A stretch of 64,000 bases of DNA. It comes from Eximiradius sp. GTDB lineage: Bacteria > Bacteroidota > Ignavibacteria > Kapaibacteriales > UBA2268. The notes below the pieces were generated by a model, which was not told the origin of the DNA, ran no database searches, and saw only the letters and a list, made by a program, of their open reading frames with translations. The position numbers and the translations under genes were made by a program. Position 1 is the first letter of the stretch; each line of letters opens with the position of its first letter. Below are positions 10,690-51,297 of the stretch, in pieces. Where the stretch lies: NCBI GenBank assembly GCA_937127445.1, contig CAKZLY010000018.1:124001-188000 (forward strand), in the 5' to 3' direction.

Positions 10690-12141
10690 CTAATCGTTAG
10701 AGTAAATTTCTTGATTGCTGCGTTCACCACTTCTGTCAATAGCAATAATTTTGAAGGAAAATGGTTTATTTGGGTCGCGAGGGGTAATTTCAAAAAATTG
10801 TGACCAAATTAATTTTTCTCTATCAGGTTTATATTGTCCAATTCTCTCTTTGTAGGTTGCATTTCCTTGAATATCAAGAGATAAAATTGTATTTTCTCTG
10901 TTTTTGAATAGTCCGAATGAATTAGTCTGGACAAGAACAGTTTTATTATCAATTTTTGATAATTTGACAATAACAGGTGGTGGAAACTTTTTGATATTTA
11001 GTTTAATTCTTTGCCCTAAAAGCTTATTGTTTAAATATCTTTCGAAGAATATATTGTCCGAGGTATCTTCATAATCAGGTGTGAAGCTGATTACTTCATC
11101 AGAAAATTGCTGGTAGCGGATATTATTATTGTCTCTAATAAGGACTTTGGCTTCGTAACCGGGAAGCATTGGCAAGTTGGGCTTGATTTTATAAGTAAGT
11201 CCGGGATATAACTCGTTTGGAATTTCAGGATTTGCAATAGGTTCAGCAATTATTGGGAACGAAATCTGGTATTCTTTGTTGTCTACTCTGCGTTTCAACA
11301 AAAGGGTAACGACTATGTTACCATAATTAGGCGAAGTGCCTTTAATCGAAATACTATTTGACGAGATGTTGCTAATAAAAGCTGAACCGCCATTGCCTTC
11401 GGGGTAGTGCTTAATACTTACTTCAATATTCTTTTGTAAATCAAGCAAAGGATTAAGCCCGCCAAGCACAAAAAGAGTATTTTGCCAATCGAATGACGAG
11501 ATGGTGCGGATTCTATCATACTGAAGCGAAAAACTAACGTCTGAAAGAACAATTTGAGGTTGCTGAACAGCTTGAACTATTTGTTCAGTTGGTTGTTCCT
11601 GAACAGCAGGCAAACCTGTTTTTCTATCATAAAAGTTAATGACAAGAGCGAACTGTGCTTTTGCAACAAGTTCGTTGCCTGTTTTTAGATCATTAGCTTT
11701 AGCAGTGATATAGACAATATATGATTTGTTAATTCTGTCGAATGTAGGTGGCTTCCAAACAAAATAGGCTATCTTTTTTTCTAATTTATCAATCAACCGG
11801 AAATAGATGCTTTGGTTTTCGACGTTTGAAACCAATTTTAGTTTACTTTTGTAAACCTGATCTTCGATCATTGCTTCGTATCTGATATTCTTAACGTCGC
11901 CAGTAAAATAAATTGTATTTAAGCTATCGAGATGAAGTAAAAACGGAATGGAATCAATTGCCATTTTACAGAATAGAGCGGATTTTTCGAGTTTGATTAC
12001 AAAAGGTGTTTCTATGGAAATACGTTTAGCAGTTTCGATTTCTCTTTCCTTTTGCGATGGAATGAGAAAAATTAGAGCTGCAAGGTAAAGTACAAAGTAT
12101 ATTTCGATAGTTTTACGATATTTGTATCTACTATTTTTCAT
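10690..12141 (-). CDS. GldM-like periplasmic protein of T9SS motor (putative)
   Basis: A 483-residue protein with one membrane helix at the extreme N-terminus (about 12-28, after a basic YKYRKT segment) and a long, beta-rich periplasmic part with Ig-like repeats and Pro-rich linkers. This is the architecture of GldM/PorM, the rod of the T9SS motor, whose helix packs inside a GldL pentamer. It directly follows the GldL-like gene with an 11-nt overlap, the order seen for gldL-gldM. I cannot confirm homology by eye because GldM sequences diverge strongly, so the call rests on architecture, gene order and the presence of T9SS cargo in this window. It could otherwise be an unrelated single-pass envelope protein. 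Confidence 0.5.
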   Translation of the reverse strand: MKNSRYKYRKTIEIYFVLYLAALIFLIPSQKEREIETAKRISIETPFVIKLEKSALFCKMAIDSIPFLLHLDSLNTIYFTGDVKNIRYEAMIEDQVYKSKLKLVSNVENQSIYFRLIDKLEKKIAYFVWKPPTFDRINKSYIVYITAKANDLKTGNELVAKAQFALVINFYDRKTGLPAVQEQPTEQIVQAVQQPQIVLSDVSFSLQYDRIRTISSFDWQNTLFVLGGLNPLLDLQKNIEVSIKHYPEGNGGSAFISNISSNSISIKGTSPNYGNIVVTLLLKRRVDNKEYQISFPIIAEPIANPEIPNELYPGLTYKIKPNLPMLPGYEAKVLIRDNNNIRYQQFSDEVISFTPDYEDTSDNIFFERYLNNKLLGQRIKLNIKKFPPPVIVKLSKIDNKTVLVQTNSFGLFKNRENTILSLDIQGNATYKERIGQYKPDREKLIWSQFFEITPRDPNKPFSFKIIAIDRSGERSNQEIYSND

Positions 12142-12925
12142 TACGGACTATTTTGTTGGATAATATTTGTTCGAGTTCGTTTCGAATAGCAATTTTAATT
12201 TCTTCTTGTTTAATTTGAGCGACGGATTCGGTTAGAATTTTGATTTTATCATTGAAATCTAACAAAGTATTATTAGTTTGTTGTAAGATACTTACAAATT
12301 GAGGATTAGGCTGAGAAATATCCATAAAAGATTTAGCAATAACAAATATTTGAGATAATGATTCATTTTGAAGGGAAATAAGAGCATTTAATTTTTCTAT
12401 AAGATTTTCTAATTGCATAGTTGTTGCAGCAAAATCTCGGCTAATTTCACCAACTTCGTTTAGGAGCTCTTTCTGAAAATCAATCTCTTCTTTTTGATTA
12501 TTCGAAGTTATTTCTTCGTTTGGAGTAAAAAGCATAATAAAGAATAAGAATAGGAGCAAAGCAGCTTCGAAAATAATACCTGCAATAACAATATCATCAC
12601 TTACGTGATCTGAAAAGCGTCTAACTCCAACAAGCACAAGCAGAATAGCAGCCCCAAAATAAGCAAAAGAATTAATTGTTGAAAAATAGAAACGGTTAAC
12701 AATTTCTTCGAGCCATATCGCTGTACCTCTCCAGAAACCAAGACTATGGATGATTTGAATATCGTCGCCGGTGTATTGCTCGAGCTCTATCTCGCTGGTT
12801 GCAATCCGCCAGGTAGCAAATAGAGCAGCGAATGAACTCCATTGCTTTTCATAACGAAGACTTTTAAAAATATCTTGCAGCAGATGGCGCCCCGATATTG
12901 AACCAAAGTTGTCAATTTTTTTCAT
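12131..12925 (-). CDS. GldL-like T9SS motor protein (putative)
   Basis: A 264-residue inner-membrane protein. Residues 86-101 (SFAYFGAAILLVLVG) and 111-133 form two adjacent helices; the second has a membrane-embedded glutamate, E120, in AGIIFEAALLL. After it comes a hydrophilic tail of about 120 residues with heptad-like spacing, likely coiled coil. GldL/PorL of the T9SS motor is known for exactly this plan: an FAY-type first helix, a glutamate in the second helix used for proton coupling, and a cytoplasmic coiled coil. Unlike the usual GldL, about 80 residues precede the first helix. The gene starts 1 nt after the LptG-like stop and overlaps the GldM-like gene. Confidence 0.6.
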   Translation of the reverse strand: MKKIDNFGSISGRHLLQDIFKSLRYEKQWSSFAALFATWRIATSEIELEQYTGDDIQIIHSLGFWRGTAIWLEEIVNRFYFSTINSFAYFGAAILLVLVGVRRFSDHVSDDIVIAGIIFEAALLLFLFFIMLFTPNEEITSNNQKEEIDFQKELLNEVGEISRDFAATTMQLENLIEKLNALISLQNESLSQIFVIAKSFMDISQPNPQFVSILQQTNNTLLDFNDKIKILTESVAQIKQEEIKIAIRNELEQILSNKIVRNEK

Positions 12926-12926
12926 A

Positions 12927-14006
12927 TTATTTTTGTGTTTTTATAAGAACAACAATACTTGCTAAAAAGAAAATAATATTAGCACTCCATCCAACAAACA
13001 TTGGGTTAATATTCATCGAGAAGCCAATTGTTTTGCTAATTTCCGTAAATATCAGGTAAGAAAAAGCAATTACCATTGCGGCGGTTATTTGTATAGCAAT
13101 ACCACCACGCTTTTTAACAGAAGCAAATGGAACGCCAAAAAGCATAACTATTAAATTCGAAAATGGAAAAGCAAACCCCGCATAATAGTCAATAAGATTT
13201 TTGCGAATATCTTTGCCACCCATTTTAAGAACATTTATATAGTCCCGTTTTTCGTCGAAATTCATTTCGTCTGGGAGCATCTGAAGCTTGATAAGTTGTT
13301 CGTGTTTTATATTAAGACTAATATTCATAGAGTCAAAGCTATTGACAAAGACGGAATTATCAGAAAAAGTTCGAACCATTACATTTTCGAGTTTCCATTT
13401 ACCATCGTTCCAGATAATTCTGTCGGCTTCAATCCTTGAGCGCAGGCGAGGAACGAGCTCATCCGAATAATCTTCGATAGCAACTTGATATCCTGTTTGT
13501 TCGGTAGGATGATAATATTGCATCATTACGTGTTTGGTAGGTGTATCACGGAAGAAAAGATTAAAAAGAGTACCGCCTTGGGCTTTTGCTTTTTTTAGAT
13601 AAACTCTTTCAATTTCTAATTTAGTTTTGTTGGCAACTGGGACAATCCAACCGTTAAAATATAGTTGCCCCAGACTCAGCAGGACAGCAAAAACAACCAT
13701 TGGAAGCATTAATCGGTATAAGCTAAGTCCCCCGGATTTCATTGCTGTTGTTTCATTGTTGGTTGATAGCCTACCAATAGAAAATAAGGTTGCAATTAAT
13801 ACTGAAATTGGTGTAAGAATTTTCAGTATTTCAGGAAAAAATGAGATATAGTATTTGAAAATTATCGGATTTGGAACATTTTTGTCAATAAAATCATCCA
13901 GATTTTCCATTAGATTAACTACTAAAAAAATCAAGCATAATGAAATAATAGCAAAGAAAAGTGTGCTAATAAACTGGCGAAGTATATATCTATCTAAAAT
14001 ATTCAT
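12927..14006 (-). CDS. lptG: LptG/LptF-family permease (YjgP/YjgQ)
   Basis: Inner-membrane permease of the lipopolysaccharide export ABC transporter. Predicted helices lie near the N-terminus (after MNILDRYILRQF), around residues 50-75 and 90-115, and three more in the last 110 residues; between them is a beta-rich periplasmic domain of about 150 residues, which is the LptF/LptG plan. The opening ILDRYI and the AFPFSNLIVMLFGVPFA segment in the C-terminal part are typical. Start set at ATG 14006 to match the family N-terminus; an in-frame TTG at 14027 adds seven poorly fitting residues. Whether it is LptF or LptG cannot be told from this copy alone. First gene of an operon with the GldL/GldM-like pair. 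Confidence 0.88.
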   Translation of the reverse strand: MNILDRYILRQFISTLFFAIISLCLIFLVVNLMENLDDFIDKNVPNPIIFKYYISFFPEILKILTPISVLIATLFSIGRLSTNNETTAMKSGGLSLYRLMLPMVVFAVLLSLGQLYFNGWIVPVANKTKLEIERVYLKKAKAQGGTLFNLFFRDTPTKHVMMQYYHPTEQTGYQVAIEDYSDELVPRLRSRIEADRIIWNDGKWKLENVMVRTFSDNSVFVNSFDSMNISLNIKHEQLIKLQMLPDEMNFDEKRDYINVLKMGGKDIRKNLIDYYAGFAFPFSNLIVMLFGVPFASVKKRGGIAIQITAAMVIAFSYLIFTEISKTIGFSMNINPMFVGWSANIIFFLASIVVLIKTQK

Positions 14007-14081
14007 AATCAATTCATTAAAAATCAATATCTTACAATATTAACAAAAATAAAATAAAATTAAGAGAAAAAAATGTAATTG

Positions 14082-15434
14082 CTAATCTTTAATGAATTTT
14101 TCAGTATAATCATCAATAGTGATAAAATATATATCTCTTGGATATTTAGAAATATTAATTACTGAATTGAGAGAACGAATAGTACCTTTATCAACAGTTG
14201 AGCCATAAATATTTCTTACATAGAAGTCGATAGGAAGTAAATTTTGGCAAAAATCAGGGAGTTTGATAACAATTTCTGTTCGTGCAGGATTAGGAAAAAG
14301 GTCGAAATAAAGATCTTGCTTTTTAAGTGTATTGGTATTGGTATCATTTTTCGAAATATTTGTTTGAATGTTGAAAATTCGTTTATAGTTTTCTGCAAAC
14401 TCGTATGGATATGAGCAAGAATCGGTCGCATCCCAATTAATTGACCACGTCATCATACCACGAATATTTGGGTAACCATTTTTTTCGAGTAAAACATAAG
14501 AGCCCGTGAAATAATCTGATTTACCTAATAAATAATTCATGGCCATAAGAACACTATCTGTGTGCATATAGCCATTGCTTGCAGCAAGATTGCAAGCGGG
14601 AAGTCCTATTGTAATTTTTTCTGGTGGGAATCCCTGGAAGAAGCCACCTTTAGTATTAAATCCTTGGATTAGTTTTTCCGTCATAGCGACAATAAAGTCA
14701 GGAGTAGCCTGAGTATAGATTTTCCAGTCTAAGCCATACATACCGCCACTATTATAGAGCTGCACATTTACTAAATCTATCGAATCTCGTAAAGCATCCA
14801 AAATTGGCAAATAAGCTCCCCAAACGCCACCATAGCCACTTTGCCCACCCTGAACATAAGCAGTTTCAGGAGAAATAGACAAAATCGCCTTTTTCCCAAA
14901 TACTTCGGAATACTCTTTCATTATTTCTTTGATTGCATCAATAAGCAAAACAATGCAAGAATCAACAGGTTGTGAAATTGTGCCACCCGAAATTCTTATT
15001 GAGTTGCCCTCGAAATCAATATCAATCCCATCGAATTCGTAATCGAAAAGAAGCCTAAGCACAGATTGAATAAAGACGTCGCGTTCCATTGCACTATCGA
15101 GTTTGATTGTTGTATTGCCACCTCCAATGGAAAGCAAAACTTTTTTACCTTGCGATTGAATAGTCTTAATTCTCGATTTGAAATCATCTTTTTTAATAAT
15201 CAACGGATGAAAATATATATCATAATCTGTTCCAGCACGTGGAGTAGCAAAAGCAATATTTATTACGTTATAGGCAGGATGTACTTTTTCAGGACCAATC
15301 ATAGGGGCAAGCGGATTATCCCAATTGTGCCAATAGCCAACAAGAACTTTTTGGGGCAAACTATAAGAATAAATTGTATTTATATTAATTAGCGAAAATG
15401 CAATTGTAATAAGCAAAATGTAATATTTATTCAC
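14082..15434 (-). CDS. Secreted GH18 chitinase-like hydrolase with T9SS tail
   Basis: Glycoside hydrolase family 18, expected to cut chitin or another GlcNAc polymer outside the cell. Signal peptide about residues 1-24. The barrel carries LSIGGG (101-106) and the catalytic DGxDxDxE motif as DGIDIDFE (135-142), so E142 is the acid catalyst. Further signature stretches are VNVQLYNS and MMTWSINWD. The last 75 residues form a T9SS type A sorting domain (DLFPNPARTEIVIKL, then a terminal FIKD), so it is probably exported by the T9SS and surface-attached or released. Start is a GTG with AAGGTG seven bases upstream. It stands alone, followed by the lptG operon in the same direction. Confidence 0.92.
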   Translation of the reverse strand: MNKYYILLITIAFSLININTIYSYSLPQKVLVGYWHNWDNPLAPMIGPEKVHPAYNVINIAFATPRAGTDYDIYFHPLIIKKDDFKSRIKTIQSQGKKVLLSIGGGNTTIKLDSAMERDVFIQSVLRLLFDYEFDGIDIDFEGNSIRISGGTISQPVDSCIVLLIDAIKEIMKEYSEVFGKKAILSISPETAYVQGGQSGYGGVWGAYLPILDALRDSIDLVNVQLYNSGGMYGLDWKIYTQATPDFIVAMTEKLIQGFNTKGGFFQGFPPEKITIGLPACNLAASNGYMHTDSVLMAMNYLLGKSDYFTGSYVLLEKNGYPNIRGMMTWSINWDATDSCSYPYEFAENYKRIFNIQTNISKNDTNTNTLKKQDLYFDLFPNPARTEIVIKLPDFCQNLLPIDFYVRNIYGSTVDKGTIRSLNSVINISKYPRDIYFITIDDYTEKFIKD

Positions 15435-47389: not shown

Positions 47390-48715
47390 ATGAATATTAT
47401 AACATTTAATAACTTACTAATCCTAATAATTTCAGTTGTACCCTGTTTATGTTTCGGGGGAAATTATACATCCTATTTGACTGGGAATAATACTGATATA
47501 ATTACAAAACCTTCAGGCGGAATATGTTTAATGGGAGGATCTCGGGAAGATGATAATGCAATGAGATGGTTTTTACAAAAGGCAAATGGCGGAGATGTTT
47601 TAGTGTTGAGGACCTCTGGGGCAGATGGTTATAATTCATATCTATATTCTGAATTAGGCGTTCCAATAAATTCTGTTGAGAGTATTGTTTGTCATAACAA
47701 ATTAGCAAGTTATGAACCATATATAATTCAAAGAATTCAGCAAGCAGAAGCTATTTGGTTCGCTGGCGGGGACCAATGGACATACATTAGTTATTGGAGA
47801 AATACACCAATTGATAGTGTAATTAACTCCGCTATTAAACAGAGAAACATAGTAGTTGGTGGAACAAGTGCAGGAATGGCAATACAAGGTCAGTATTATT
47901 TTTCGGCACAAAATGGAACAGTAACATCAGCTCAGGCCCTTTCAGATCCATTTAATAACCGAGTTACTATCGATACATCATCATTTATAAAGCACAATTT
48001 ATTATATAATACTATTACAGAAACGCATTTCGATAACCCTGATAGGAAAGGAAGACTTGTGGCATTTTTAGCAAGAATAATTACAGATTATGGAGTTTTT
48101 GCAAGAGCAATAGCGTGCGATGAATATACAGCTGTTTGCATTGACACGAATGGTATTGCACGCGTTTTTGGGGGGCATCCAAATTATGACGATAATGCAT
48201 ATTTCATCCAATCCAACTGTGAACTGAAAATTAAAACACCAGAAAAATGTTCTGTGGGAAATCCTTTAACTTGGGATTTAGATGGTTTAGCAATTAAAAC
48301 TTATAAGATTAAAGGAGATGAAAAAGGTAGTGGAACATTTGATTTAAATACCTGGCAATCTGGCACTAATGGCATTTGGTATAAATGGTATGTCTCTGAT
48401 GGAATATTTTTTGAACAACCTGGAACTGCTATTAATTGTTCACCTTTGTCGATAAAAGATAATTCTAATTTTTCAGAAATCAATATTTTCCCAAATCCAA
48501 TTGCAGATAAATTAACAATAAAATCAAGTAACTCAACAATTGATGAATACAATATATACATATTCAATAGTCTTGGAAAGAAATTACAAGTAAAGATAAT
48601 TCAAATGGGTAATGAATACACTCTTGATTTAAGTAATCTCACAAATGGGCATTACTATTTGATAATCGCAAAAAATAATGGCAAAATCTATACAAGAAAA
48701 ATAATAAAAGACTGA
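47390..48715 (+). CDS. Secreted cyanophycinase-like peptidase with T9SS tail
   Basis: Family S51 peptidase related to cyanophycinase, which cuts the Asp-Arg storage polymer cyanophycin. Signal peptide about 1-22. Catalytic serine S160 in GTSAGM (158-163), with the glycine-rich FAGGDQ (124-129) and ICLMGGSREDD before it. After the peptidase core comes a linker and a T9SS type A sorting domain of about 80 residues (INIFPNPIADKLTIK, final RKIIKD). Intracellular cyanophycinases lack such a tail; this one should act outside the cell. Substrate could be cyanophycin or another beta-linked aspartyl peptide. Confidence 0.88.
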   Translation: MNIITFNNLLILIISVVPCLCFGGNYTSYLTGNNTDIITKPSGGICLMGGSREDDNAMRWFLQKANGGDVLVLRTSGADGYNSYLYSELGVPINSVESIVCHNKLASYEPYIIQRIQQAEAIWFAGGDQWTYISYWRNTPIDSVINSAIKQRNIVVGGTSAGMAIQGQYYFSAQNGTVTSAQALSDPFNNRVTIDTSSFIKHNLLYNTITETHFDNPDRKGRLVAFLARIITDYGVFARAIACDEYTAVCIDTNGIARVFGGHPNYDDNAYFIQSNCELKIKTPEKCSVGNPLTWDLDGLAIKTYKIKGDEKGSGTFDLNTWQSGTNGIWYKWYVSDGIFFEQPGTAINCSPLSIKDNSNFSEINIFPNPIADKLTIKSSNSTIDEYNIYIFNSLGKKLQVKIIQMGNEYTLDLSNLTNGHYYLIIAKNNGKIYTRKIIKD

Positions 48716-48858: not shown

Positions 48859-51297
48859 ATGAAGATAATTATTAGTCTCAATTCCGTGTTTTTTGCTATA
48901 ATACTTGTTTTGTTTAGTTTAACGCAGGTTTTTGCGCAAGCTCCCGATATAAAAATAGTTGGTGGAGTGCCTGCAAATATTGAAGATTATCCTTACCAAG
49001 TAGCGCTATTTTCGATTGATGAAGAGGGCAACATTAATGAATTTATGTGTGGCGGTTCAATAATTGATAGATATTGGGTGATAACAGCAGCACATTGTGT
49101 CCTGCAGAATTCGCACAAAAAACAAAGAATATTAGCAGCATTTTCTAAATTAAGTGAAATGAGTGAAGCAGTAGTTTATGAAATTTCCGATTATATTATC
49201 CATCCTGAATATGATATGAACACAGTCGTAAACGATATAGCGTTGTTGCGGTTAGCATATCCAATAGATACAGCAAACCTCAGTAGCAAAATAATAAGAT
49301 TAGTAACACCTGAAGAAGAGCAATCAGGGCTAATTTCTCCTGGAACAATGGCAACAATAACTGGATGGGGAACAACTCAGTACATGGGCGAACAACCAGA
49401 CCAATTACAGGTTGGTGTTTTACCAATAATTTCGGTGGAAACGGCGAACCAATGGTTTGCAGAATCTACACAAGGAATGAATACAGTTCTTGAAAGTATG
49501 TTACCAGCAGGTTACGAAGAAGGTGGAGTAAGCGGCTGCCACGGCGATAGCGGAGGGCCACTCGCGGTAAAAGACTCTATAAATAATTTCGTTTTAGCAG
49601 GCATAACTTCGTGGGGAAACATTTGTGGAGCACCAAAACAACCAGCTGTTTATACTCGCGTGCCTTATTTTTACGATTGGATTATGGACAACTCAAAAAT
49701 CAATGTTATTTTTGAGCCTACAAACGATAATTTCATCGATCTGGATAAAATATATATAAAAGACAAAGTATATTCTTGCGGAGAAGTCCCACAAATTGGC
49801 GAATATTTAGTTGTTAATACGGGAAAAGAGCCATTAGAAAAATTCGACGTAACAATAAAAATCGGAACTGACCCAAATAATATATTAAACTCTATTACTC
49901 AAACGATACTGATTGATAATCCATTATTAACAGGTGGAAGTAAAAGATTTCCCATTGAATTGAGTGGAACTATTGAAAATTATGGGATGTACTGGATAGA
50001 AGTAACTATTTCAAAACCAAACGGGTATGAAACTGAGCTCGAAAAGTATACAGATAACAAGTATTTTGAGTTAGCAAAACCAAATACACTTACATTATCT
50101 CTTGATTTTGGAAATATCTTTTCTGTTGGTTGGGCGATATTAAATGCAGGAACAATGGAACAAATTGAGACAAAAGATTATAATTTTGCTTCATCCGGCA
50201 AGAAAGTGGAAGAACAAATATGTCTTGGCGAAGGTAATTATATGTTCTTTATCGGTGGAATGGGTGAATATGATTTTAATTTATCTGTTGATGTAGATGA
50301 CAAAAAATACGACTTGCTATGGAACGAAGAGCAATCTTTCTTCCATATGACATCGTTCTCTATTCCATTTGAACCAAATTATAATATAACTGTTATGAAG
50401 AATGATATGACAGATTATGTAATAGTTTGTGATTTAAATGAAGTTAGCGAAAACTTAAACCTGACTTTGAATAATACCGGGACATTACCGATTAAGAATT
50501 TGAAATATAAAATAACTTATGAGAACAGTCAAAGCTCGGAAACCAAAACATTATCGAACACAATTTTCGCTGGTTCGGCTTATCCAATCGAACTAAATCT
50601 TGATGAATTATCTGTCGGAAACAACAAAATAAAAGTCGAGATCATTTCGTATGATAATTACGAAGAAGAGATAAACCTCGATGATAATATATTAAATGCA
50701 GAATTTCAAGTTGAATTACTTCCAAAATTTGCTACTTTGAGCATACAAACAGATGAAAACTTCTGGGTATATGGTTGGGAAATCAGAAACGAAGAAGGAC
50801 ATATAGTAATGAGTAGAAATGTGGAAAGTCCTTACACAACTGAATATGATTTATGTCTGCCAGAAGGATGTTATTATTTGGTCCCAATTAATAGTTCGGA
50901 AGGTGGAGTAAATGTAGATACAGCAGTTGTTATACGAGACTTCGCTGGACAAATAATATTAGTAGTTACAGGTAAAGAATTTATTAATGAAAACCAATTC
51001 AAATTCTGTAATGAATTTTCATCAGTCAAAGATGATATAAAAGTTGATAATCTATCGTTATATCCTAATCCAGTTTCAAATTCTATAAATCTGTCATTCG
51101 CGACAAGTAACATTTCAAGAGCAGAAGTATCAATTACAAGCACATTAGGTAATGTCCTTTACTTGAATGAAATCCAGACAACTATTGGACAGAACAACAA
51201 AACAATTGATACTAGTAGACTGCCTATTGGTGTTTATTCTCTGAATGTCAAAATAAATAACCAAATCTTGAGTAAACAATTCGTTGTAGTCAAATAA
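48859..51297 (+). CDS. Secreted chymotrypsin-like serine protease with T9SS tail
   Basis: Family S1 protease, 812 residues. Signal peptide to about A26, then a short propeptide; the mature chain would start at I33 (IVGG). Triad: H79 (TAAHC), D126 (NDIALL), S231 (GDSGGP). Cysteines 64-80 and 227-256 fit conserved S1 disulfides. The residue equivalent to 189 at the base of the specificity pocket is Ser225, as in chymotrypsin, not Asp as in trypsin. After the protease come about 450 residues of beta-rich, CARDB-like repeats and a T9SS type A sorting domain (LSLYPNPVSNSINLSF, final KQFVVVK). A ribosome site GTGGAG precedes the ATG. Confidence 0.92.
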   Translation: MKIIISLNSVFFAIILVLFSLTQVFAQAPDIKIVGGVPANIEDYPYQVALFSIDEEGNINEFMCGGSIIDRYWVITAAHCVLQNSHKKQRILAAFSKLSEMSEAVVYEISDYIIHPEYDMNTVVNDIALLRLAYPIDTANLSSKIIRLVTPEEEQSGLISPGTMATITGWGTTQYMGEQPDQLQVGVLPIISVETANQWFAESTQGMNTVLESMLPAGYEEGGVSGCHGDSGGPLAVKDSINNFVLAGITSWGNICGAPKQPAVYTRVPYFYDWIMDNSKINVIFEPTNDNFIDLDKIYIKDKVYSCGEVPQIGEYLVVNTGKEPLEKFDVTIKIGTDPNNILNSITQTILIDNPLLTGGSKRFPIELSGTIENYGMYWIEVTISKPNGYETELEKYTDNKYFELAKPNTLTLSLDFGNIFSVGWAILNAGTMEQIETKDYNFASSGKKVEEQICLGEGNYMFFIGGMGEYDFNLSVDVDDKKYDLLWNEEQSFFHMTSFSIPFEPNYNITVMKNDMTDYVIVCDLNEVSENLNLTLNNTGTLPIKNLKYKITYENSQSSETKTLSNTIFAGSAYPIELNLDELSVGNNKIKVEIISYDNYEEEINLDDNILNAEFQVELLPKFATLSIQTDENFWVYGWEIRNEEGHIVMSRNVESPYTTEYDLCLPEGCYYLVPINSSEGGVNVDTAVVIRDFAGQIILVVTGKEFINENQFKFCNEFSSVKDDIKVDNLSLYPNPVSNSINLSFATSNISRAEVSITSTLGNVLYLNEIQTTIGQNNKTIDTSRLPIGVYSLNVKINNQILSKQFVVVK

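Follow-up and report, generated by a model that had tools for sequence, protein, structure and literature searches.

A probable, strongly diverged GldLM-type motor pair in Ignavibacteria/Kapabacteria-like Bacteroidota

The closest described counterparts of the gene pair reported here are the motor subunits of type 9 secretion. GldL/PorL (TIGR03513, PF22827) has a two-helix hairpin with the motif GA[AS], a basic residue at +11, a glycine at +25 and an invariant glutamate at +29, followed by a cytoplasmic coiled-coil tail, and the next gene encodes a one-helix periplasmic partner. This partner, GldM/PorM (TIGR03517), consists of one N-terminal transmembrane helix and a long beta-rich periplasmic part; in canonical GldM a domain of five helices, D1, stands ahead of the beta domains (PMC5790014). 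Secretion in F. johnsoniae requires the hairpin glutamate of GldL (E49, the equivalent of E120 below; PMC8986121). With the models of its time, a 2016 survey detected type 9 secretion in Bacteroidetes alone (PMC4793230), and a review called GldLM exclusive to Bacteroidetes (PMC9389320); for Ignavibacteriota, a 2024 paper states that a type 9 system “may also be present” (PMC11285876). Our literature search, with most subscription papers and preprints outside its coverage, found no paper on the motor variant described here.

The window, by which we mean the whole stretch of 64,000 nucleotides that was analysed, contains three genes transcribed from the minus strand in the order lptG, a 264-aa ORF (GldL_A) and a 483-aa ORF (GldM_A):

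12927..14027, minus strand: LptG, LPS permease (PF03739, E=1.6e-78; ATG at 14006)
12131..12925, minus strand: GldL_A, GldL-like protein of 264 aa (ORF list, hairpin profile comparison)
10690..12141, minus strand: GldM_A, GldM-like partner of 483 aa (ORF list, AlphaFold2, gene position)
GldL_A parts: N-terminal extension of about 80 aa; hairpin at about 82-132; cytoplasmic coiled-coil tail (conservation, AlphaFold2)
GldL_A hairpin residues: GAA 91-93; Arg102/Arg103; Gly116; Glu120 (E120)

The identity of the first ORF as LptG is certain from its sequence. It lies 5' of GldL_A on the same strand with a gap of 1 nt, while GldL_A and GldM_A overlap by 11 nt (12131-12141); ORFs, coordinates and overlap agree with the original prediction, which had read the two genes as a GldL/GldM-like pair. 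Neither protein has a Pfam or NCBIfam match above cut-off, and the Pfam, NCBIfam and PDB sequence matches that were returned for them are due to chance or to coiled coil only. Downstream of the pair in the window there is a lytic transglycosylase gene, and in this genome no type 9 machinery gene lies directly beside the pair. Unlike GldL/PorL, GldL_A is encoded outside a gldK-gldL-gldM-gldN cluster, with lptG or unrelated genes upstream.

Of 60 related genomes, the window's own included, 58 contain a member of the GldL_A family, usually 37-56% identical; in the remaining two the search recovered nothing but a second hairpin protein, to which we return below. In an alignment of 36 family members R13, G63, G67, G91, A92, E120 and L124 are invariant, and M1, G12, W71, E74 and R78 nearly so. 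Because residues of the extension of about 80 amino acids are kept across the family, we regard it as a genuine, conserved part of the protein, and the conservation of M1, G12, R13, G63, G67, W71, E74 and R78 rules out a wrong start codon as its source. The AlphaFold2 model predicts helices at residues 64-104 and 110-132, followed by long helices of the coiled-coil type at 141-204 and 208-263. All the features that had been claimed for the protein are therefore present in sequence and model: two adjacent helices, the motif FAYFGAA (residues 87-93), E120, the coiled-coil tail and the long stretch ahead of the hairpin, which begins near residue 82 as against about residue 10 in canonical GldL.

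To compare GldL_A with canonical GldL we took as reference those sequences that stand in a gldK-gldL-gldM setting, collected from 148 genomes of the phylum by means of the curated GldL_N model. An hhalign comparison of the whole families gave E=2.4e-7 and placed E120 on the canonical glutamate. Since coiled coils can inflate profile-profile scores, the hairpins were also compared alone, which gave a score of 31.8 (E=1.9e-6); reversed profiles scored about 10, and 96 decoy windows from LptG and ExbB, taken forward and reversed, reached 13.7 at most. The hairpin cores align without gaps. With GAA set to position 0, the glutamate at +29, which is E120, is found in 21/21 canonical GldL sequences and 36/36 members of the GldL_A family, and the glycine at +25 in 21/21 and 32/36, respectively. 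At +11 canonical GldL has lysine (21/21), where 26 of the 36 family members have arginine; a further arginine occupies +12 in 32/36. By these profile comparisons the GldL_A hairpin is homologous to that of GldL, and the check for which the original prediction had named HMM-HMM comparison came out in its favour on the GldL side. GldL_A shares with GldL/PorL the hairpin with its GA[AS] motif, basic residue, glycine and glutamate, as well as the coiled-coil tail and the one-helix partner encoded next; it differs in the arginine for lysine at +11 and in the 80 conserved residues ahead of the hairpin. It also falls outside the curated GldL families: neither TIGR03513 nor PF22827 matches it, PF22827 matching 37 other genomes of the phylum, and HMMER searches of whole genomes with canonical GldL do not reach the GldL_A family.

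Structural databases added little to this comparison. The monomer model of GldL_A gave 21 weak Foldseek matches, none of them significant, among which were 7sat and 7sax, chains of PorL/GldL complexes, at E of about 7-9. A PDB profile match of the GldL_A family to the GldL entry 7sax (E 0.0026) covers the coiled coil only and is not usable. The 5:2 motors of the MotA/ExbB/TolQ type (PF01618), in which an ion-driven ring surrounds two helices, may share this general principle with the proposed pair. Their profiles, on the other hand, show no similarity to the hairpin (hhalign score 12.8, no Pfam match to PF01618), and separate PF01618 members are encoded in the same genome; kinship of the GldL_A hairpin with MotA/ExbB was therefore rejected.

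The partner protein presents a different picture. GldM_A was modelled by AlphaFold2 with a mean pLDDT of 83 as an N-terminal helix (14-25), which carries the motif YFVLY in its single transmembrane segment, followed by beta strands in Ig-like domains; after residue 49 the model is all beta save for a helical turn of four residues at 357-360. The expected single N-terminal helix, beta-rich part and gene position are thus there, as in GldM/PorM. Because the model has no helical D1, its Ig-like domains beginning soon after the helix, the architecture is unlike that of canonical GldM, and sequence homology was not detectable: neither the whole profile of GldM_A nor its N-terminal helix aligned with GldM above reversed controls in hhalign, TIGR03517 does not match it, and Foldseek returned generic Ig strings, GldM being absent from the 50 best fold matches. 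A motif common to the N-terminal helices of GldM_A and canonical GldM, suspected by eye, likewise did not exceed the reversed controls. What GldM_A has in common with GldM is consequently its place in the gene order and its topology, and the name “GldM-like” should be read as going no further than that; here the profile check failed the original prediction.

Such a partner invites the question of whether the two proteins form a motor at all. They could be an inner-membrane scaffold pair, one member a two-helix anchor and the other a periplasmic Ig-like protein, as one might suspect from the lack of homology between GldM_A and GldM, from the generic Ig fold matches and from the fact that coiled-coil tails are common. 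For a mere anchor, however, it is hard to explain why a buried glutamate is invariant in 36/36 family members and throughout the four hairpin groups, accompanied at the same spacing by a basic residue on helix 1. We regard the scaffold as quite improbable.

Does the organism have a type 9 system to be powered? The genome encodes SprA on the same contig as the window, as well as PorU (840 bits, cut-off 420) and PorV (266 bits, cut-off 250). The PorU and PorV genes are also on this contig, approximately 12-17 kb from the pair, ending just beyond the left edge of the window. The three enzymes with type 9 sorting tails that had been reported for the window were recovered as candidate cargo, the tail of the first lying just below the cut-off:

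14082..15434, minus strand: GH18 enzyme (Por_Secre_tail PF18962, 26.7 bits, just under the 27-bit cut-off)
47390..48715, plus strand: peptidase S51/cyanophycinase-like protein (T9SS type A sorting tail)
48859..51297, plus strand: trypsin-family protein (T9SS type A sorting tail)

A second, canonical gldKLMN set elsewhere in the genome would have spoken against a divergent motor; of its components GldL (GldL_N), GldM and GldN were searched with curated models, and none matched. In 23 of 23 sampled genomes of the class, this one included, the GldM (TIGR03517) and GldN models found no match and SprA was present. The same models match Bacteroidia control genomes, TIGR03517 three of them. Across the 148-genome sample of the phylum, SprA occurs in 117 genomes. 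Canonical GldL matches 37 genomes, none of which belongs to this class, and the GldL-like hairpin profile matches 20, all of them SprA-positive and all within it. Since only one clade shows this co-occurrence, it counts as one evolutionary event at best. Moreover, 61 SprA-positive genomes match neither GldL_N nor the hairpin profile, so the absence of a profile match is weak evidence, and GldL probably diverges beyond the reach of profiles in other clades too. Those 61 genomes may hold further divergent motors or use another energy source. One genome (G061) is the opposite case to that of the window: it has canonical GldL, GldM and GldN and no SprA match.

We therefore think it likely that GldL_A and GldM_A constitute a strongly diverged proton motor of the GldLM type and supply the energy for type 9 secretion in this Ignavibacteria/Kapabacteria-like class of Bacteroidota. 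The hairpin homology, the conserved charged residues, the gene pair and a type 9 translocon in a genome where canonical GldL, GldM and GldN models find no match are all observed. The “divergent motor class” of the original prediction is supported in these respects, and for its GldM half no homology was detected. As to stoichiometry, proton use, rotation and coupling to secretion, we infer a scheme by analogy with GldLM. Five copies of GldL_A would surround the N-terminal helices of two GldM_A molecules, and the helix pair would be turned as E120, close to the arginine or arginine pair with which helix 1 ends, takes up and releases protons. The one-helix protein GldM_A would then be the axle, its Ig-like periplasmic part acting as a shaft that transmits movement towards the SprA/PorV/PorU translocon of the outer membrane. 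If so, the pair is a concrete candidate for the missing type 9 engine in Ignavibacteriota, it would indicate which motor residues survive extreme divergence, namely the glutamate and its basic neighbour, and it would provide a natural test of whether proton flow can be coupled to secretion without the D1 domain of GldM and the ring part GldN.

A GldM_A-like gene lies directly 3' of GldL_A, often with an overlap of a few bases, in 42 of 48 genomes (those with enough downstream sequence, each counted once), and in the remaining 6 no GldM-like gene follows. In comparison, lptG is upstream of GldL_A on the same strand in only 21 of about 48 loci. It is therefore the two genes that form the unit, with lptG as a frequent neighbour that can be missing; attachment to lptG in place of gldK/gldN, which had been put forward as a mark of this motor, is true of the window locus and does not define the family.

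The picture is complicated by a second hairpin protein, GldL_B, of about 450 aa, whose hairpin lies near the C-terminus and matches the GldL_A family at E=1.6e-11 in hhalign. Almost every genome of the order has an ORF of this type, by a count on size 57/60. In 6 of 9 sampled loci GldL_B is directly upstream of a PorU-related C25 peptidase of 1800-1930 aa (loci L034, L036, L039, L042, L044 and L049). These neighbours are PorU2-like (NF052324), with the two scanned ones at 235.6 and 214.7 bits, below the cut-off of 450; full-length PorU has a gene of its own. In the genome of the window, GldL_B (L033:9255-10595, contig C13) is unlinked to GldL_A and does not adjoin a C25 peptidase.

It is therefore conceivable that GldL_B serves type 9 secretion and that GldL_A/GldM_A is a GldLM-like proton motor for some other envelope task, e.g. 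LPS transport or cell-wall work. The frequent lptG upstream and the lytic transglycosylase downstream would suit such a role, it is GldL_B and not GldL_A that adjoins the C25 peptidase in six genomes, and hardly any genome of the order lacks either protein. Against this, the pair is intact in loci without lptG, GldL_B has no adjoining GldM-like gene except in one genome (G040), where it directly follows GldM_A, and short GldL-like proteins of sister families are likewise paired with a YFVLY partner. Taken together, we consider this division of labour unlikely.

The exception just mentioned, G040, has lptG, GldL_A, GldM_A, GldL_B and a PorU-like peptidase in one run, both hairpin proteins thus being contiguous with its single GldM-like gene. 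With the homology of the two hairpins and their nearly equal distribution (57/60 and 58/60 genomes), this tentatively suggests that GldL_A and GldL_B are two subunits of one ring, or form two ring types with a common GldM-like shaft, which would refine the type 9 motor proposed above and not compete with it. The contiguous order is seen in one genome only, and the two genes are unlinked in the window's genome. Extended to the whole class, one may speculate about a rebuilt type 9 motor in which GldL_A (264 aa) and GldL_B (about 450 aa) would be ring subunits, with one common Ig-domain shaft without D1 and no GldN; the two might share a ring, or there might be two motors, one of which is tied to the second PorU-like peptidase.

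In sister families of the class the GldL-like protein is shorter, mostly 173-230 aa, and the gene after it encodes a protein of about 205 aa with a YFVLY N-terminal helix. Their hairpins match the GldL_A family at E=6.6e-15, and the N-terminal helices of their partners match GldM_A at E=2.8e-7 (reversed control 1.6e-3). At six loci (L111-L115 and L122) this short pair is followed by a protein of about 365 aa and then by alternating secreted proteins of about 510 and 460 aa, which have barrel-like C-termini; none of those scanned reached the cut-off of any Pfam or NCBIfam family. Judged by sequence, this gene set is a candidate for a new outer-membrane module. Some genomes possess a third GldL-like type, mostly of about 310-370 aa (L124:7088-11018, L043:9083-10018 and L052:8762-9736). 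At the first of these loci, L124, a larger hairpin protein (466 aa) precedes a 744-aa protein that opens with a YFVLY helix.
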